Source: Streptomyces coeruleorubidus (GTDB lineage Bacteria; Actinomycetota; Actinomycetes; Streptomycetales; Streptomycetaceae). Taken from it: a DNA stretch of 64,000 nt. This document shows, piece by piece, positions 3,912 through 56,068 of this stretch. Every line of letters begins with the position of its first letter. Within the stretch, counting starts at the first letter, position 1. The stretch lies in assembly GCF_028885415.1 (NCBI RefSeq), contig NZ_CP118527.1, positions 7,626,001-7,690,000 of the forward strand, in the 5' to 3' direction. The notes below the pieces were generated by a model. The model was not told the origin of the DNA. It did not search any database and saw only the letters and a program-made list of their open reading frames with translations. Both the position numbers and the translations under genes were made by a program.

Positions 3912-5150
3912 TCAGCTCACCTTCACGTCCTGCCACACCAGCCGGTGGTCCGACGTCGGAACCGTCGAGCCGTCCCCCACCAGCCGGTACAACGGGTCGC
4001 CGGGCGTCGGCCAGAACACGCCGTTCGCGCCCGGTGTCAGGCCCCGGGACGGGATGACGTGGTCGACGCGCAGGTTGCCGGGTGCGGTGTCGCCGAAGTC
4101 GGCGGTGTCGTACGCCGGGTCACCGATGTGCGAGGCGTTCGCGCCGCCCTGGAGCCGGGCCGCCGCCACCCCGCCCCTGCTCGCCGGCGGTGTTGCAGGC
4201 GGGTTCACCGCCGGGTGCTCCAACAGCTGCCGTACGGCGTGGTCGTAGCTGTCGCCGTCGTACGGATCGGCGTTGAGGTCTCCCGCGATCACGAACCGCG
4301 CCCCGGGCCGCAGTCCGCCGCGCCGGCCCCGGTCGTCGTACAGGTACGCGCCGCGCCGGCGTGCGCCGATGTAGTCGGCCCACAGGCGTATCTCGTCGTG
4401 GTTGCGCCGGCCGTTGCGGTCCTCGGGGCCGTCGAAGGTGGGCGGGGTCGGGTGCGACACCAGGAAGTGCACGGTGTCCCGGCCGATCCGCACGGGCACG
4501 TCCCAGTGGCTCTTGGAGGACAGCCGCAGGATCGCCCGGGCCTCGTCGCTGTAGTAGCCCTCCGGCATGACGTTGCCCGGCATGTCCTTCCACAGGAAGT
4601 GCTGGAAGGTGCGTACCGCGCGCGTGTCGATCGGGTACTTGGACAGCACGACCATGCCGTACTGGCCGGGGAACCAGCCGTACCCGTAGGCGTCCTGCCC
4701 GTAGGCGTCCGAACCGGGCGTCGTGACGGCCCCGTTCTTCCCGTCCAGGTCCACTCCCGTGGCGACGCCCGTGTTCACGGGCCCGGTGAAGCGGTACGGA
4801 TAGCGGACCGGGCGGGCGCCGCGCTGCCCCACCGCCAGGTAGTTGCGCAGGAACAGGCGGACCGCCGCTGCCTCGTCGTCGTAGTCGAACTCGTTGATCA
4901 GCAGCACGTCCGGGTCGACCCGCTGGATCGTCTCGGCGGCGTTGCGCGCCTGGGCGTTGTCCGGGGTGGACAGGTCCCGGACGAGGGCGCCCTGCGCGGA
5001 GCGGTTCAGGGAGGCGTTGAACGTGGCGAACCGCACGGTGCGCCCGTGCCGTTCGGACGCCGAGGCGTTCAGGGCGGTCGCACCGGCCAGCGCCGCCCCC
5101 GCGAGCGAGGTGAGCGCGGCCCGGCGCGGCAGGACTCGGGGCTGCTTCAT
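3912..5150 (-). CDS. Secreted endonuclease/exonuclease/phosphatase (EEP) family protein
   Basis: 412 residues. The N-terminus has basic residues (PRVLPRRA) and a hydrophobic Ala-rich segment ending in an AxA-like site (NASASE), consistent with Sec or Tat export. The mature part has EEP marks: FATFNASLNR, INEFDYDD with a catalytic Glu, ARFVIAGDLNADP and a final TSDHRLVW. The fold cuts phosphodiester or phosphomonoester bonds in nucleic acids, lipids or small molecules. The long insertions between motifs resemble the secreted phytase/nuclease-like branch of actinomycetes, and the substrate cannot be read from sequence. The ATG at 5150 is preceded by GGAG at good spacing; the frame extends upstream without an RBS. 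It is divergent from geoA. Confidence 0.85.
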   Translation of the reverse strand: MKQPRVLPRRAALTSLAGAALAGATALNASASERHGRTVRFATFNASLNRSAQGALVRDLSTPDNAQARNAAETIQRVDPDVLLINEFDYDDEAAAVRLFLRNYLAVGQRGARPVRYPYRFTGPVNTGVATGVDLDGKNGAVTTPGSDAYGQDAYGYGWFPGQYGMVVLSKYPIDTRAVRTFQHFLWKDMPGNVMPEGYYSDEARAILRLSSKSHWDVPVRIGRDTVHFLVSHPTPPTFDGPEDRNGRRNHDEIRLWADYIGARRRGAYLYDDRGRRGGLRPGARFVIAGDLNADPYDGDSYDHAVRQLLEHPAVNPPATPPASRGGVAAARLQGGANASHIGDPAYDTADFGDTAPGNLRVDHVIPSRGLTPGANGVFWPTPGDPLYRLVGDGSTVPTSDHRLVWQDVKVS

Positions 5151-5321
5151 GGTGGACTCCGGTGAACGAGAGGGACGTGAACTGCCAGGGTGCGGACGTA
5201 AGTCTGCGCGCGTAGAGATGAACGCCACAAGGTCCGGCGAGAACTCCCGCATTCATTCCCGATTCACGCGATGGTGTGATCATGTCCGGTCCCGCGGATG
5301 CCGCCGCGAGGCGCCGGGTAG

Positions 5322-7868: not shown

Positions 7869-9158
7869 ATGGCCAGATTTCGGATGTACCCAACGAGCGA
7901 GCAGCAGGAGCAGATGCTCTTGCACTGCGCGCACGCCCGGTACGTCTGGAATCTTGCCGTTGAGCAGCACGCACACTGGAAGCCCGGACGGAAGTCCGCA
8001 CCGGGGTTCGCGGAACAGTGCCGTCAGCTCACCGAGGCCCGGCGGGAAAATGAATGGCTCGCTGCCGGGAACGCGGACGTGCAGCAGCAAGCCCTGAAAG
8101 ACTTCGCCAAGGCCAAGAACGCCCGCTTCAGCTCTGGGTTCGGGGAGCCGACCTGGCGCAAGAAGTACGTGCACGAGGGCTTCCGCGTCATCGGTAACGA
8201 CCGCGTACCCGAGCACAACGCGGACGGCACGACGAAGCTGAATCCGAAGACCGGCAAGCAGGTCATGGGCCGCTCGGTGGTGGTGCACAAGCTCAACCGG
8301 CGCTGGGCTCAGGTCAGGGTGCCCGGCTGCGGCTGGGTGCGCTTCCGCCTCACCCGCGCCGAGCCGCCCGACGCGAAGACGTTCCGGGTCACCTTCCGCA
8401 GCGGTCAATGGCACATCGCCTTCGCCGTCATCCCGGAGCCGATCGAGAAGCCGGGAACGGGCGAGATCATCGGTATTGACCGGGGCGTGGCCATCACCGC
8501 CGCCCTGTCGGACGGGCGGAAGCTGAACTGCCCGCAGCTCACGGTCAAGGAGCGCGCTCAGATCCGCAAGCACCAGCGCCGAGCGGCCCGGGCACCGAAG
8601 GGCAGCGACCGCAAGACCGTCGAGTATGCCAAGGTCGCCCGGCTCAAGGCACGTGAGGCGAATCGGCGCAAGGGCTGGTGTGAGAAGACCAGCACCATGC
8701 TCGCCAGGTCGTACGACCTGATCCGGTTCGAGAAGCTGAACATCAGGAGTATGACCCGCTCGGCAAAGGGAACCGTTGATCAGCCCGGCGCGAACGTCCG
8801 GCAGAAAGCCGGGCTGAATCGTGGCATCCTCGCCCAGGGCTGGGGACTCCTGCGACAGCGCACTGAACACAAGGCCCCCGACCGGGTCGTGGATGTTCCC
8901 TCCCCCTACACGAGTCCGCGGTGCAGTGCCTGCGGATGGATCGAGAAGAAGTCGCGCAAGAACCAAGCCGACTTCGAGTGCGTATCCTGCGGCTTCACCT
9001 GTAACGCAGATGAGAACGCAGCAAACAACGTCGCGGCAGGACAGGGCGGGATCCCCCGCCCCCGGCGCTCAGCCGGTGCCGGAGGGGTGACAACGGCCAC
9101 CAGCCGTTCGAGTGCCCGTGAACCTCAACCCGCCTGGGTTGGAATCCCCCTCTTTTAA
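7869..9158 (+). CDS. tnpB: TnpB, RNA-guided nuclease of an IS200/IS605-type element
   Basis: 429 residues. The N-terminal helix-turn-helix-like domain (RMYPTSEQQEQMLLHCAHAR, YVWNLAVEQH) is followed by the WED/REC-like part. The split RuvC has its three acidic residues: Asp in IGIDRGVA, Glu in RFEKLNIRSM and Asp in NADENAANN. A zinc finger (CSACG, CVSCGF) sits before the last. Known TnpB proteins use an RNA from the 3' end of the gene to cut DNA next to the element's target motif, which favours element retention. The catalytic residues look intact. The ~35-residue tail after NNVAAG is probably not folded protein, since its DNA doubles as RNA scaffold. ATG follows the RHH gene divergently. Confidence 0.93.
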   Translation: MARFRMYPTSEQQEQMLLHCAHARYVWNLAVEQHAHWKPGRKSAPGFAEQCRQLTEARRENEWLAAGNADVQQQALKDFAKAKNARFSSGFGEPTWRKKYVHEGFRVIGNDRVPEHNADGTTKLNPKTGKQVMGRSVVVHKLNRRWAQVRVPGCGWVRFRLTRAEPPDAKTFRVTFRSGQWHIAFAVIPEPIEKPGTGEIIGIDRGVAITAALSDGRKLNCPQLTVKERAQIRKHQRRAARAPKGSDRKTVEYAKVARLKAREANRRKGWCEKTSTMLARSYDLIRFEKLNIRSMTRSAKGTVDQPGANVRQKAGLNRGILAQGWGLLRQRTEHKAPDRVVDVPSPYTSPRCSACGWIEKKSRKNQADFECVSCGFTCNADENAANNVAAGQGGIPRPRRSAGAGGVTTATSRSSAREPQPAWVGIPLF

Positions 9159-15681: not shown

Positions 15682-15786
15682 ACCAGCTGTCGATCCCTGG
15701 GGAGTGGCTCAAAACCCATTGCTCTCCGCGGTGTTGACGTACCCCCGAAGTCGTGACTGACTGTGCGTACGCCATGTACAGCTGGT
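15682..15786. repeat. 9-bp inverted repeat flanking the M14 carboxypeptidase promoter
   Basis: ACCAGCTGT (15682-15690) and its exact complement ACAGCTGGT (15778-15786) lie 87 bases apart; each arm also holds the CAGCTG palindrome. TTGACG at 15734-15739 between them could be a -35 box. Two distant operator halves for looping are possible. Confidence 0.4.
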
Positions 15787-15811
15787 GAAGCGACGGCACC
15801 GCATTGGGGAG

Positions 15812-17170
15812 GTGTGCTTGCCGCCCCTCCCGCGCTACCCGACCGTCGACGAACTGGGCGCCCGGGCCGCCGCCTTCGTCGCCCGCCACCCGCGTAAGGC
15901 CCGGCTGCGCCGGATCGGCACGTCCCGCGCGGGCACGCCCATATGGCTGCTCTCCGTCGGCCACGGCAGCCGTCAGGCCCTCGTCGTCGCCGGTCCGCAC
16001 GCCAACGAACCCGTGGGCGGCGCCACCGTGCTGCGCCTGGCCGAGCGGGCGCTGGCCGACCCGCGGCTCACCGAGGGAGCCGACGCCACCTGGAACCTGC
16101 TGCTGTGTCTCGACCCGGACGGCCTGCGCCGCAACGAGGGCTGGCTGACCGGCCCGTACGCCCTCGGCCAGTACTTCCGGAACTTCTTCCGGCCCGGTTT
16201 CCTGGAACAGCCCGAATGGCTGCCCGACGGCGCGGCCGGCGCCGCCCTGCCGGAGACCCGCGCCCTGCTCGACGTCCAGGACGAACTGCGGCCGTTCCTG
16301 CAGTGCTCCCTGCACGGCGTCGACGTCGGCGGCGGCTTCGTCGAGCTCACCCGTGACCTGCCCGGCCTCGCCCAGCGTCTCGCCCATATCGCCGCCCGGC
16401 TCGGCATCCCCCGCGAACTCGGCGCCTACGACGCCCTGTACTGGCCCGACCTCGGGCCCGCCGTCTACCGGATCCCGCCGCCGCGCCGGGCCGACCTGGC
16501 CGCGGCCATAACGGAGGCCGCCGTCGAGTCGACGTGGTTCCACCCGCACCGGCACGGCACCGTCACCGCGGTCGTCGAGGCGCCCATGTGGGGCGTGGCG
16601 GCCGTGGCGGACGGCTCCCCGCCCGCCGACCGGGACGCGGTGCTGCGGGCCGTGAGCCGCACCCTGCGTCACGACACGGGGCTCCTGCGGCACCTCCTGG
16701 CCCGCGTCCGGCCGCACCTCGCCGCGGTCCCCGACGCGGCGCGCCTGCTCGCCCCGGTCGACGACTATTTACTGGTCTGCCCCGGCCTCGCCGACGCCTG
16801 GGACCCCGACACCGGCGACGGCGCGGCCCACCCCCTTCCGGACCTGAGCACCGCCCACCTCGCCGCCCTGCGCATCTCCGGGCGACGGCTGGCCCTGCGC
16901 ACCGCCGGGCTCCTGCACCAGCTCGTGCGGGCCGCCGGCCACGACCCGGCCGGGGCGCTGCCGGAACTGGACCGGCTGATCGACGAATGGTGCGCCGACT
17001 ACCGCGACGGCTGCGGGGCGCGCTGGATCCCGGTGGCACGCCAGGCGGAGTACCAGGCACGCGTCGTGCTCGCCGCCTTCGAACTGGCCGGGCGGCACAC
17101 GCGCGCGTGCTCCCGCTCGGGCGAGCCGGGGTGGGAGTCAGGGGCGGCCGTGCCGATGCAGCGGGAGTGA
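15812..17170 (+). CDS. M14-family zinc carboxypeptidase (paralogue 1), TTA codon
   Basis: 452 residues. Zinc ligands His and Glu are in VAGPHANEPVGG, and the third ligand is the His in CSLHGVDVGG. A long C-terminal helical domain follows. No signal peptide is seen. It is a paralogue of the convergent M14 gene at 17259-18509, with the same layout throughout. The start is uncertain: GTG 15812 makes the N-terminus match its paralogue (12 residues to RYPTV in both). TTG 15818 has the better-spaced GGGGAGG, and GTG 15785 is also in frame. The Leu in DDYLLV is encoded by TTA (16769-16771), which makes translation depend on the rare bldA tRNA and points to late, developmental expression. Confidence 0.85.
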   Translation: MCLPPLPRYPTVDELGARAAAFVARHPRKARLRRIGTSRAGTPIWLLSVGHGSRQALVVAGPHANEPVGGATVLRLAERALADPRLTEGADATWNLLLCLDPDGLRRNEGWLTGPYALGQYFRNFFRPGFLEQPEWLPDGAAGAALPETRALLDVQDELRPFLQCSLHGVDVGGGFVELTRDLPGLAQRLAHIAARLGIPRELGAYDALYWPDLGPAVYRIPPPRRADLAAAITEAAVESTWFHPHRHGTVTAVVEAPMWGVAAVADGSPPADRDAVLRAVSRTLRHDTGLLRHLLARVRPHLAAVPDAARLLAPVDDYLLVCPGLADAWDPDTGDGAAHPLPDLSTAHLAALRISGRRLALRTAGLLHQLVRAAGHDPAGALPELDRLIDEWCADYRDGCGARWIPVARQAEYQARVVLAAFELAGRHTRACSRSGEPGWESGAAVPMQRE

Positions 17171-17258
17171 CGCACCGCTCTCGGCGCGGACGGGGCCGGT
17201 GTCCGCCGGCGTCGGCTCGGCCCGGCCGGCCACGGGGGATCTGTGACGCCGCAGGGGT

Positions 17259-18509
17259 CTACGACGCCCCCTCGCGCGCGTGCAGCGCCGCGGCGACCAC
17301 CGTGCGGGACTGGTGCTCGACCTGGTGCTCCAACGGCACCCAGCGGGCGCGGAAACGTTCCGCGAAAGCGCCGCTCCAGGTCGCCACGAGCTCCTCCAAC
17401 TGCTCGGCCGCCCGGTCGTCGGTCCCGCGCAGCACCCGCCGCAGCATCGCCGCCGCCCGCAGCGGCACGCGGCGCGCGAACGCGTCCACACTGCCGACGT
17501 ACGCCCGGGTGCGGTCGGCGGGCGGCGTGCGCACCAGGTCGTCGGCCAGCCCCGGCACCAGCTCCAGCCCCCACCGCGCGGCCCGCAGCAACGGCCCGTC
17601 CAGATCCGCGAGCCGGGGCAGCGCGCCGTCGAGCACCCGCGTCACCTCCAGCGCGTCCCGTTCCAGTCGGCGCGCGAGCCGCCCGATCGCCGCCGCCGGA
17701 GCCGGATGCGGAGCCGGGTCGTCCACCAGGTCGCTCGCCCACATCGGCACCTCGACCACCGCGGTCAGACCGCCGTACCGGTGGGCGTGGTACCAGGTGC
17801 TGTGCCGCGCGTCGTCCGGCAGGCTCGGATACGCGGGCCCTGCCTCCGGCGCGGGCATGACGTGCACTCCCGGTCCGGAGGCGGGCCAGCCCGCGGCGTC
17901 CGAGGCGCCGGTCTCCACCGGGATGTGCAGCTCGGCCGCGGACTTGGCGAACGGCTCGGCCAGCCCGGGCACGTCCTTCGTCAACTGCACCCAGCTGCCG
18001 CCCAGGTCCGTGCCGTGCAGGGTCACCTGGAGGTAGGGGCGCAGCTCGTCGATGACGCCGGTCAGGGCCCGGGTCTCGGGCGGCAGCCGGTCGGGCGGCA
18101 GCACGGAGGGCGCCCACTCCGGCTGCTCCGGGCCCGCGGGACGGAAGAAGCCGAGGTGGTAGTCGAACAGGCTGCGCGGCGCCGGAGTCACGTGCAGGCT
18201 CGCCCCGTCGGGGTCCGCGCACAGCAGGAAGTGCCAGGAGATGCCGTCGCGCAACTCCCGCTCCTCCAGCACCCGTCGGGCGAGCGCGAGCAGCGTGCAG
18301 GAGCCGGTCGGCTCGTTGGCGTGGGCGCCGGCGACCACCAGCACGGCGCGGCGGGCGCGGCCCACCGACAGCAGGTGCAAAGGTCTGCCCGCGCGCGAGA
18401 CACCCACCTGCCGCAGGGTGCACATCCCGGGCCGGTGAGCGGTCAACGCCCGGGCGGCTAAGACCTGTTCGGCCACCGTCGGGTAGCGCAGCTCCGGCAG
18501 GACACTCAC
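17259..18509 (-). CDS. M14-family zinc carboxypeptidase (paralogue 2), TTA codon
   Basis: 416 residues, paralogous to the convergent M14 gene. Zinc site: VAGAHANEPTGS supplies His and Glu, and LQVTLHGTDLGG supplies the second His. The C-terminal helical domain ends in ARWVPLEHQVEHQSRTVV, matching ARWIPVARQAEYQARVV of its partner. GTG 18509 is chosen because it aligns with the partner's N-terminus. Codon 17 (Leu, in EQVLAAR) is TTA at 18461-18459, so this gene too should depend on bldA. Cytosolic M14 enzymes of this type remove C-terminal residues from peptides. The substrate is unknown. Confidence 0.85.
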   Translation of the reverse strand: MSVLPELRYPTVAEQVLAARALTAHRPGMCTLRQVGVSRAGRPLHLLSVGRARRAVLVVAGAHANEPTGSCTLLALARRVLEERELRDGISWHFLLCADPDGASLHVTPAPRSLFDYHLGFFRPAGPEQPEWAPSVLPPDRLPPETRALTGVIDELRPYLQVTLHGTDLGGSWVQLTKDVPGLAEPFAKSAAELHIPVETGASDAAGWPASGPGVHVMPAPEAGPAYPSLPDDARHSTWYHAHRYGGLTAVVEVPMWASDLVDDPAPHPAPAAAIGRLARRLERDALEVTRVLDGALPRLADLDGPLLRAARWGLELVPGLADDLVRTPPADRTRAYVGSVDAFARRVPLRAAAMLRRVLRGTDDRAAEQLEELVATWSGAFAERFRARWVPLEHQVEHQSRTVVAAALHAREGAS

Positions 18510-18602
18510 CCCCGTCACATCCGCCCGAGTTCGCAATCGCAGTACCCCACGGCCATGGTGCGGTGTCAAGGGCACGACGGGGGGGTGCCTCTATGTCCTT
18601 CG

Positions 18603-19805
18603 TCAAGCGAGGCGTGGGGTTCTGGGTTCGTAGAAGGTGCCGTCGCGGAGCATCGCGAACAGCACGTTAATCCGTTGCCGGGCGAGCCGGAGGAGGGCCT
18701 GTGTGTGGGTCTTTCCTCTGGTCCGGCACTTGTCGTAGTAGGTGCGGGAGGCGGGATCGTGCAGGGCGGCGAACGCGGACAGGAACATCGCCCGTTTGAG
18801 CTGCCGGTTGCCGCCCCGTGGGGCGTGCTCGCCGTGGATCGAGGTGCCCGACGACTTCGTGGTCGGGGCGAGGCCGGCGTAGGAGGCCAGGTGCGCGGCG
18901 GTGGGAAAGCTGGTGCCGTCGCCGACGGTGACCAGCAGCGTGGCGGCGGTCCTGACGCCGACGCCGGGCAGCGACGTCAGGACCTTTGAAAGAGGGTGGT
19001 CCTCCAGCAGGGCTGCGATCTGGGCTTCCGTCGCCCGTCGCTGTTCATGGACGGCGCTGAGCGAGCGGGCCAGCGACGGGATCACGATGTCGAGCGTGCC
19101 GGTGCCCGGAACGACGACGGTCTGCTCGTCGAGGGCCTCGAAGATGTCGTCGATCAGCCGCTTCGCCATCCGGGGAGCCTTGGGCCGGATCACCTCAACG
19201 AGCCTGCGGCGGCCGGCTTTTCGCAGCGCGGCCGGAGATCCGTAGCGTTCCAGCAGCCAGGTGACGGCCTGATGGTCGAGCCGGGGGCCGAGGACGCGCT
19301 CCAGGCTGGGGTGGAACTGGGTGAGCAGGCCGCGGATGCGGTTGCTGGTGCGGGTGGCCTCAGCCGCGAGGTCCTGGTCGAAGCCGACCAGAACTGTCAG
19401 CTCGGCGGTGATCTCGTCGCTGACCTCCAGCGAGCGCAGGGTGTGTGGCATCGTGCGGGCCGCGTCGGCGATGACCGCGGCGTCCTTCGCGTCGGTCTTC
19501 GCCTCGCCGGGGTAGAGATCGGCTATCCGGCGCATGGCGAGTCCGGGCAGGTAGGCGACCTTGCAGCCCGCGTCGCGGGCGACCGTCAGGGGCAGGGCGC
19601 CGATCGAGGCGGGCTGGTCCACGATCACCAGGACGGTGCCGAACTTGGTCTTCAGCTTGGTGAAGACGTCCCGCAACTTCGGTTCGGTATTGGGCAGCTG
19701 CTTGTCGAAGACCTTCTTGCCGGTCGGGGTGAGGCCGTGCCCGTGGTGGGCGCTCTTGCCGACGTCCAGGCCGAGGAAGACGCCTATCTCGTCGCTGTCG
19801 TTCAA
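18603..19805 (-). CDS. IS110-family transposase (DEDD recombinase)
   Basis: 400 residues, the usual family length. The N-terminal RuvC-like DEDD domain starts at GVFLGLDVGKSAHH and includes VIVDQPAS and EAKTDAKDAAVIADAA. The C-terminal transposase_20 domain has TSLPGVGVRTAATLL, AHLASYAGLAPTTKSSG and GGNRQLKRAMF with the conserved serine region. The start is TTG 19805, preceded by GGGAGGA at 5 bases; upstream codons are non-coding leader. It catalyses RNA-guided recombination between element ends and target, together with a bridge RNA. The frame is intact, so the copy may be active. Confidence 0.92.
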   Translation of the reverse strand: MNDSDEIGVFLGLDVGKSAHHGHGLTPTGKKVFDKQLPNTEPKLRDVFTKLKTKFGTVLVIVDQPASIGALPLTVARDAGCKVAYLPGLAMRRIADLYPGEAKTDAKDAAVIADAARTMPHTLRSLEVSDEITAELTVLVGFDQDLAAEATRTSNRIRGLLTQFHPSLERVLGPRLDHQAVTWLLERYGSPAALRKAGRRRLVEVIRPKAPRMAKRLIDDIFEALDEQTVVVPGTGTLDIVIPSLARSLSAVHEQRRATEAQIAALLEDHPLSKVLTSLPGVGVRTAATLLVTVGDGTSFPTAAHLASYAGLAPTTKSSGTSIHGEHAPRGGNRQLKRAMFLSAFAALHDPASRTYYDKCRTRGKTHTQALLRLARQRINVLFAMLRDGTFYEPRTPRLA

Positions 19806-19879
19806 GCCGTCCTCCCGAACGGGTTGGTGCGGTACTGGCCCGGGCGTTGGCGTCGTGCGCGCATCCACGTTATGCAGAC

Positions 19880-20060
19880 CTGCCGCCTGCGAAGGGCCGG
19901 GCATTGCGCCCGGCCGGGCGGTAGTCGGACCTCTCATCAGCGTCTCCCACGGCGCCTCTCGGGCCCGGTGGCACCACCCCCCAGGTCATCCGTTCGACAG
20001 GGGGGACCAGCCATACCGGGCCCGGAGGCCAGTGGCCCTCTTGCAGGACCGCGAAGAACA
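19880..20060 (-). ncRNA. Candidate IS110 bridge RNA region
   Basis: The leader upstream of the transposase holds two strong structures. GGCCGGGC/GCCCGGCC (19895-19902 with 19908-19915) is a perfect 8-bp stem. CGGGCCCGGT/ACCGGGCCCG (19960-19969 with 20015-20024) is a perfect 10-bp stem. It encloses an inner CCCCCC/GGGGGG stem (19977-19982 with 20000-20005) with an internal loop between. Stems with internal loops are how known IS110 bridge RNAs present target and donor guides. Which loop does what is not determined. Confidence 0.5.
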
Positions 20061-20168
20061 TAACGGGGGGAGGCTCCAGGGGGGCCCGGGAGCATGGCCG
20101 GCCGGTGCGCGGCAGGCGCCCTGACGGTGTGTTGCCACCGTCGCGGGCGTGGCGTCACCGGGGCAGTG

Positions 20169-21688: not shown

Positions 21689-21731
21689 TTCTTGTGGAAT
21701 CGATGCAGGGCGTTTATGGGAGGGGCCGTCC

Positions 21732-25654: not shown

Positions 25655-27787
<2,133 letters not shown>

Positions 27788-28412
27788 GGATACGACTCTT
27801 TCAGGTGAGCGGCGCCGGTGGGGACGCCTTGGTCCCGAGTCTCCCCGAAAGTGAGGGAACCTCCTATGACTTATGTCCCTCTTACCGAGTGACCAGTGCA
27901 TACGCGTTATGCCGAACCAGTGGGGCAAGTGATACTCCCGGGGCGTTTGGGGGAGTAGGGGAAAGATATGACACGGGGACCCGGTTGCAGCCCGTCCGGC
28001 AGGGGGCCGGTCCGGGCCGGGGCCGGGCGCCCGGGGACGTAGCGGAGGCGCCGGCCGAAGCGGCGAAGGATACGGGCCGTGATCCGCCGGCCGGCGACGA
28101 GACGGAGCGGGGCGGGAAGATCGCCCTGAGCCGGCAGCCGTTCCAGGCGGCGAGGACGCCGACGGGGAGCGCGGCCCGCAGCGCCTTGCCGAACCCGGGC
28201 CCGGCGAGGTCGGCGCCCCGGCGCGCCGAATCGCCCCGCGCGACGTCACCGCTATGAATCAGCTCACTCCGGCTGAGCCCGGACGGCAGAACCGGCACTG
28301 GCCGCCGCACGGTTGAGAACTACCCTGCCCATCCGGCTGCACCGCCGACCGCTCCCGGAGTACCCTTCCTTGATCGTTGGGTGGGGCCTGACGCCGCGGA
28401 GCAGGCGGGAAC
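27788..28412. other. Long intergenic region between glgX and the SAV2148-type gene
   Basis: 625 bases between divergent genes. The part next to glgX (27850-27970) is less GC-rich and probably holds its promoter. At 27990-28250 both strands show open frames with high third-position GC (for example a minus-strand frame reading GFGKALRAALPVGVLAAWNG), so a small unrecognised gene or decayed remnant is possible. No RBS or known domain supports one. Nothing else is evident. Confidence 0.5.
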
Positions 28413-55158: not shown

Positions 55159-55285
55159 GGTTGATACGTCCTTCGGGACAGGCGGGAAAGCGGCTCTGAC
55201 CTGCGCGCGGGCGCATGGGCATACGTGCGCGTCTTTGCGCAGGGATGAGACGAGAAAGGGGGGTTGTCGGGCTGCGTGAGTGCTC

Positions 55286-55369
55286 TCAGCGCGCCGGACA
55301 GATGGAGCTGGACATGCGGCCGAGGTCGACGTGGCGTCGACTCACCAAGGCAATCCCAGTTCCAGGCAT
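55286..55369 (-). CDS. Leader peptide of the sulfate-assimilation operon
   Basis: 27 residues opening MPGTGIALVSRRHVDLGRM and ending SSSICPAR. The RRHVDLGRM...SxIC core is the Streptomyces 'putative leader peptide' pattern found before sulfur-metabolism operons. It lies 128 bases before sir on the same strand. A single Cys codon near the end suggests cysteine-dependent attenuation, which is an inference. The rest of the 337-base gap up to 55495 shows nothing else convincing. Confidence 0.75.
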   Translation of the reverse strand: MPGTGIALVSRRHVDLGRMSSSICPAR

Positions 55370-55495
55370 GACGGAAGCGTGGCACGGCGATCTGGACACA
55401 GTCCAGCTTCGTCCAAGATTCGGACACTTACGTCTCGAAATGCAAGACACGAGTGTCCTTGGTCACATAGGCCCGTCCCGGGGTGTCCGACCAGG

Positions 55496-56068
55496 TCAGA
55501 CGGGGAACGCCCCAGGCCACGGCCCCGGAGCGGTGACCTCCGGTTCCTCCTCGACCTTGGTGTCGAACAGCTTGAAGCCCCGGCGCTGGTAGTTGTCCAT
55601 CGCGCGCTCGCCGTCCTTGCTGCACGTGTGCAGCCAGACCCGCTTCGTCGGGCTCAGTCCCGCCCAGCGGTCCGCGAGGTCCCAGGCCCGGGCCGTGCCG
55701 TACGACAGCAGGTGCCCGCCGATGCGCCGGCCGCGGAAAGCGGGGAGCAGGCCGAAGTAGAGGATCTCCACGACCGCGTCGTCCTGCGCCTCCAGCTCCA
55801 CGTACCCCGCGGGCGTGCCCCGGTCGTACGCCACCCACGTCTCCACACCGGGCCGCTCCAGGTGCTCCAGCCACCGCGCGTACGACCAGCTCAGCCGGTC
55901 CGTCCAGTCGATGTCGCCGCCGACCGAGGCGTAAAGGTACCGGCTGAACTCGGGCGAGGGCACCTCGGAGCGGACGATCCGGACGTCCCCGTCCGGCGCG
56001 GCGGCCGGCAGCAGGTCGGTCGGGGCGGTCTGCTCCAGGGACCAGGTGGTCACGGCGATGGTGGTCAT
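55496..56068 (-). CDS. GNAT-family N-acetyltransferase
   Basis: 190 residues. Acetyl-CoA loop EILYFGLLPAFRGRRIGGHLL (RGRRIG is the Q/RxxGxG/A variant). Other marks: AGYVELEAQDDAVV before it and YQRRGFKLFDTK after it. Substrate unknown. It is close to the sulfate-assimilation leader but has its own start at 56068. Confidence 0.87.
   Translation of the reverse strand: MTTIAVTTWSLEQTAPTDLLPAAAPDGDVRIVRSEVPSPEFSRYLYASVGGDIDWTDRLSWSYARWLEHLERPGVETWVAYDRGTPAGYVELEAQDDAVVEILYFGLLPAFRGRRIGGHLLSYGTARAWDLADRWAGLSPTKRVWLHTCSKDGERAMDNYQRRGFKLFDTKVEEEPEVTAPGPWPGAFPV

Follow-up and report, generated by a model that had tools for sequence, protein, structure and literature searches.

TTA codons (UUA in the messenger) are read by the bldA tRNA, tRNA-Leu(UAA), the charged form of which accumulates late in growth. 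Few TTA codons appear in the published lists of widely conserved ones, in the sections available, and each of them points to a gene whose expression late in growth may be of use to streptomycetes. In the pair SCO6638/SCO6637, as described in the available part of PMC2000904, the TTA-containing gene ends in a stop codon that shares nucleotides with the start of the gene behind it, and both products are reduced in a bldA mutant. The gene sti (SCO0762) encodes an inhibitor of the SSI family, and sti1 is bldA-dependent through AdpA (available parts of PMC2936110 and PMC2000904). The locus analysed here, in a window of 64,000 nucleotides (the whole stretch of Streptomyces DNA under study), holds two genes, A and B; in most relatives, A is followed by a third one, C, of the SSI family.

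The comparative data come from a genus sample of 295 genomes, in 185 of which A or a relative was matched. The 100 best A-like loci were taken and two of them (L130 and L131, less than 58% identity to A) were left out, giving 99 sequences, i.e. 98 loci and the window. To these were added the best 80 of 261 loci with Streptomyces in their titles, a part of the collection that leans to near relatives. Merging of identical genes reduced A from 179 to 160 and B from 141 to 125 sequences, and the loci of an order-wide sample were kept out of the counts. The tree was obtained by a quick search, with 39 of its 157 inner branches open, and the contrasts involving B were made without the loci L129, L043 and L153.

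The M14 gene pair in the window

The first-pass annotation had described A and B as convergent paralogous M14 carboxypeptidase genes with one TTA codon each, a description borne out by the Pfam matches, the sequence identity and the frame of both codons (Table 1). The two proteins score above the cut-off of 21.6 bits for Peptidase_M14, the match spanning just 86-87 residues in the N-terminal part of each. In A, the residues H63-A-N-E66 form what we take to be the HxxE zinc motif of M14 metallocarboxypeptidases, and H63 and E66 do not vary in an alignment of 31 A and B proteins. In the same alignment H168 and E256 are also invariant; they are presumably the histidine acting as third zinc ligand and the catalytic glutamate of M14, which is plausible by position. 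The structure model has a mean pLDDT of 70.7, and a carboxypeptidase fold was found.

Table 1. Features of the A-B locus, with positions counted in the window
Feature	Position	Strand	Remarks
Promoter-like block of A, TTGACG ... GTGACTGACTGTGCGTAC	15734..15768	+	high conservation in an alignment of 158 upstream regions
Shine-Dalgarno-like GGGGAGG of A	15806..15812	+	GGAGG near start in relatives
Gene A, M14 metallocarboxypeptidase-like	15818..17170	+	PF00246 41.3 bits; probable TTG start 15818; alternative GTG 15812
TAT (Tyr) codon directly before the TTA of A	16766..16768	+	co-retained with TTA
TTA (Leu) of A, residue 320 (numbered from GTG 15812)	16769..16771	+	same column in 89/160
A-B gap, C absent here	17171..17258	.	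most relatives carry SSI-type inhibitor gene C
Gene B, convergent with A and its M14 paralogue	17259..18509	-	PF00246 48.4 bits; 41% identity to A over 432 columns
TTA of B, residue 17	18459..18461	-	1/125 distinct B sequences, window strain alone
Promoter-like TTGACA - 17 nt - GGTACT of B, intact	18541..18569	-	conserved in 123 aligned relatives
IS110-family insertion (transposase 18603-19937)	18584..20065	-	NF033542 236.2 bits
Conserved GC-rich element	20066..20098	-	abuts the promoter-like site of B in relatives; alignment

The probable start codon of A is CTG in 157 of the 160 distinct sequences, TTG in two (the window included) and CAT in one, with GGAGG at most 14 nt before it in 158 of 160. 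Upstream of this codon, 44 of the 160 A genes hold no in-frame ATG, GTG or TTG before a stop, and in the window translation from TTG 15818 is more likely than from GTG 15812. The conserved block further upstream is a putative promoter of A. No signal peptide was seen in A by eye. Near the gene pair, neither ARAGORN (7 loci) nor Rfam at its gathering score (7 loci) gave a tRNA or structured RNA.

The statement that in-frame TTA occurs in the window only in these two genes is correct as regards its probable genes. Open reading frames of at least 60 aa contain 25 in-frame TTA triplets in the window, seven of them, those of A and B included, in frames with a GC3 of at least 0.8. The triplet at 5201 is located upstream of the likely start (5150) of the gene at 3912-5252, the one at 21714 precedes the LysR start (21732), and those at 8197, 19870 and 26859 are in frames antisense to longer genes with Pfam domains. 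The remaining 18 are in frames of atypical GC3, three of which (1717-2244, 27757-28254 and 55215-55589) were searched against Pfam and gave no match. A mean of 177 TTA-containing frames per genome, over 213 Streptomyces genomes, is given in section 17 of PMC10327506; scaled to 64 kb of the 9.41 Mb genome, it predicts about 1.2 of them per window, so that the presence of two TTA genes is unremarkable as a count. What would speak for selection is conservation, and in the sequence comparisons it is present for A only.

Conservation of the TTA codons in A and B

The TTA codon of A is found at the identical codon in 56 of the 99 sequences of the genus sample, the others having CTG (20), CTC (14) or further codons (9). 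With the best 80 of 261 loci added, it is present in 89 of 160 distinct genes and absent from 71, which carry CTG (32), CTC (26), CTA (3), GTC (3), GCA (2), GTA (2) and, in single cases, GTT, ATA and TTG. Among the 9,956 leucine codons of the 160 A genes there is one further TTA. The codon is scattered over the tree, with 18 parsimony changes on 160 tips, the ninth fewest of 69 columns (range 12-43, median 26). If a gain is charged more than a loss, TTA comes out as the ancestral state, lost 22-25 times and gained 0-1 times; if both cost the same, there are 7 losses and 11 gains. A two-state rate model gives it the third lowest estimated loss rate among 26 rare-codon columns of this gene, below 23 of the 25 others. 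This low loss rate favours a selective keeping of the codon without an absolute need for it, and the comparison suggests that the TTA of A is probably selected, though often absent.

The codon directly before it is TAT in 82 of the 89 rows with TTA and in 7 of the 71 other rows, and the linkage is also seen in 14 independent contrasts (9.2 in the same way, 0.6 opposite and 4.2 without difference; median p 0.012). TAT and TTA being kept together and changing in a linked manner are what would be expected if the AT-rich hexamer TATTTA were conserved, as an mRNA processing or DNA-binding site, with TTA as a passenger and bldA irrelevant. We regard this as unlikely, since TTA stands without TAT in 7 of the 89 rows, by the estimated rates it is lost more slowly than TAT (1.30 against 3.25), no canonical promoter hexamers were seen by eye around the site, and the linked change may also reflect one recombination event.

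In contrast, the TTA codon of B is found in one of 75 sequences in the genus sample, the residues most often present in this column being Ser (32), Leu (13), Ala (11) and Arg (10), and with one occurrence among 125 distinct B genes there is no sign of selection on it. The first-pass annotation had read the independent positions of TTA in two adjacent paralogues as selected developmental control of the pair, and had pointed to conservation in orthologues as one means of checking it. Looked at in this way, selected TTA control is supported for A and not for B, and the TTA of B being unconserved, the two positions give no evidence of joint control.

A role of B as the partner of A through TTA was considered and rejected. 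The TTA of A is unrelated to the presence of any TTA in B (Fisher p 0.79, 125 distinct pairs), it is not tied to an adjacent B (5 independent contrasts, 0.3 in the same way and 1.1 opposite), and it is present in 8 of 38 loci without B. TTA at any place in B occurs in 16 of the 125 distinct A-B pairs, and 8 of these B genes have it at one other leucine codon. Column 85 of the B alignment, a leucine, is unusually rich in TTG, one step from TTA (TTG 86, CTG 29 and TTA 8 of 125). In B, GTG at residue 1 and CTG at residue 4, either of which may be the start codon, are both invariant (125/125).

The TTGACA/GGTACT site upstream of B, intact in the window, could be its own promoter. An IS110 copy lies 74 bp upstream of the start codon of B, at a place that is uninterrupted in 9 of 9 relatives compared, and it is inserted between this site and the GC-rich element, the separation of which now amounts to 1.48 kb. 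Since the upstream element has been displaced by IS110, the regulation of B may be disturbed in this strain regardless of its TTA. B would be a separately promoted M14 paralogue and its TTA a recent private change. Another gene of the window that resembles those of mobile elements, at 7869-9158 (+), is IS605 OrfB/TnpB-like (Cas12f1-like_TNB 52.4 bits, OrfB_IS605 52.0 bits).

A neutral leftover is our preferred reading for the TTA of B, in agreement with its single occurrence. The extension of this reading to both codons, neither having regulatory meaning, could call in addition on the near-expected number of TTA genes in 64 kb, on the absence of the TTA of A from 71 of 160 genes and on the poor conservation of most TTA codons stated in section 17 of PMC10327506. 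It is very improbable in our view, as it leaves unexplained the 89 of 160 genes that have TTA at one codon, in A genes otherwise holding one TTA. Two paralogues that lie side by side can hold TTA codons of opposite history, and a conservation check is therefore needed before a TTA is read as control.

Gene C and the 3' end of A

C is located right after A in 123 of the 160 loci and is absent from the window and its clade. Its start codon (ATG or GTG) lies on the stop codon of A in 118 of the 123 loci and further on in the other five. An alternative start, an in-frame xTG at -36, exists in 121 of the 123 (GTG 61, CTG 53, ATG 6 and TTG 1). The three C proteins tested all match PF00720 (SSI) over the cut-off, with E values of 2.2e-23 to 1.6e-24. 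The products are mostly of 135-152 aa with four to six cysteines, the residue at what we take to be the P1 site is Met in 110 of 123, and their N-termini appear hydrophobic and signal-like in the translations inspected by eye; C may be secreted. None of the 123 C genes has a TTA of its own.

An SSI hit at the A locus was recovered in all 16 C-bearing genomes tested, 15 of which contain a stronger one elsewhere. Two SSI matches, one of them strong and the other weak, are present in the genome of the window strain, neither being beside A, and the same pattern was seen in the four clade-mates tested. A search of 25 A-B gaps without C gave no remnants of it at E 0.01. The operon partner of A, in relatives where the two would be cotranscribed, is probably this SSI-type inhibitor gene rather than B, and the window probably holds the decayed form of a bldA-gated M14-SSI operon.

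A dependence of the TTA of A on C was also considered. In raw counts, TTA is present in 79 of 123 loci with C and in 10 of 37 without; the independent contrasts do not support the association, as 7 contrasts on the tree give 0.6 in the same way and 0.8 opposite. With gains costlier, 5 losses of TTA fall on a branch length of 0.82 without C, versus 17-20 on 8.6-8.8 with it; on these few events, the loss of TTA per unit of branch length looks higher where C is missing.

A nucleotide element in the 3' end of A is distributed much as C is. The block CGTTCGGGTGA, small variation allowed, is present in 121 of the 123 C-bearing loci and in none of the 37 others; it lies 53 nt before the C start in 120 loci and 46 nt before it in one, and was not found in two. 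Together with TGCCGATGCA, it is near-invariant nucleotide by nucleotide in 118 loci (e.g. L105 and L037), near the C start, and it is kept in all five loci where the frame of A ends at this block. The rare codons with a slower loss than TTA, CGT 435 and GGT 437, are both near the 3' end of A and occur in 109 and 116 of the 123 rows with C, respectively, and in 1 and 3 of the 37 without. For the link of the codons of this element with C, 7 contrasts give 4.8 in the same way and none opposite (median p 0.06; few events). As the CGTTCGGGTGA block is confined to C loci and is kept even where the frame of A ends, the 3' end of A carries a signal linked to C. A coupling hairpin at the C start, with a consensus CGUUC-GAAUG pairing in 113-115 of 115 rows, was rejected: its columns are nearly all invariant, and the pairing of single sequences (mean probability 0.034 versus 0.008 in shuffled ones) is above the control in only 48 of 121.

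An internal promoter of C in this element could free C from the UUA. More generally, a promoter or a ribosome-binding signal within the 3' end of A could drive the expression of C independently of the UUA, so that TTA would matter to A alone. The two near-invariant blocks, the first at a fixed distance from the C start, are in agreement with such a signal, but the 26 nt between them are unfit for a sigma-70-type promoter, and the C starts placed on the stop codon of A in 118 of 123 loci correspond to a layout common in coupled genes. We hold this explanation to be rather unlikely, less so than that of the TATTTA hexamer.

The explanation that we favour overall, and consider on balance probable, is that the UUA of A is a retained bldA switch, that C is gated in relatives and that the TTA of B is private. 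A would be a cytoplasmic enzyme of the M14 carboxypeptidase type, its UUA an old bldA switch, often lost and selectively retained. From known bldA biology, A would be completed only late in growth, once there is enough charged tRNA-Leu(UAA). Stalling of a ribosome at this UUA, codon 320, about 400 nt before C, would keep it from the C start, and C would be withheld too, through lost coupling or polarity; the pair SCO6638/SCO6637 is a precedent for such behaviour. In the lineage of the window, where C is gone, A alone would be gated, and the switch would be either a relic or kept for the sake of A itself. Against this explanation stand the absence of TTA from 71 of the 160 genes, its parsimony changes being no better than ninth fewest among the 69 columns, the lack of association of TTA and C on the tree, the few events behind the link of the 3' element with C, the chance that this element is an internal promoter of C, and the folding result at the C start. 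Its boldest form, that the overlapping gene for an extra SSI-type inhibitor is gated in cis by the UUA of the intracellular M14 enzyme, which would provide a second, direct bldA route over extracellular proteolysis, is put forward tentatively, as a possibility with the odds somewhat against it. If it were true, enzyme and inhibitor would appear together with tRNA-Leu(UAA), and species without the inhibitor would be free to lose the switch.

Comparison with known systems

Both conserved TTA codons and operons headed by a TTA gene have been described before; the M14-SSI case is a further one, absent from both published lists in the parts available. Neither a carboxypeptidase nor an SSI gene is found in Table 2 of PMC4255298, several rows of which have no or unknown function, or among the 11 conserved TTA codons of section 17 of PMC10327506, where a hypothetical protein has its TTA at nt 49-51, which is not the place of that of A. 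In the literature searched, subscription papers aside, no title or abstract start mentions an M14-SSI operon or the TTA of A.

With adpA (bldH), A shares one rare UUA at an identical place across species, as described in the available parts of PMC2936110 and PMC4255298 (section 11). The two differ in that adpA encodes a regulator and has TTA in all 14 genomes of the table of PMC4255298, in the part available, whereas A has it in 89 of 160 genes and encodes an M14-type enzyme. The A-C pair has the same overlap layout as SCO6638/SCO6637 in the available part of PMC2000904, the likeness being one of layout, without sequence comparison. Finally, C resembles sti in belonging to the SSI Pfam family, but in 15 of 16 C-bearing genomes tested it comes in addition to a stronger SSI hit, called sti-like by score alone, and its link to bldA would be in cis, whereas sti1, in the parts of the papers available, depends on bldA through AdpA. 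The M14-SSI pair would put a protease inhibitor under direct control of the bldA switch, in addition to the known route through AdpA and sti.
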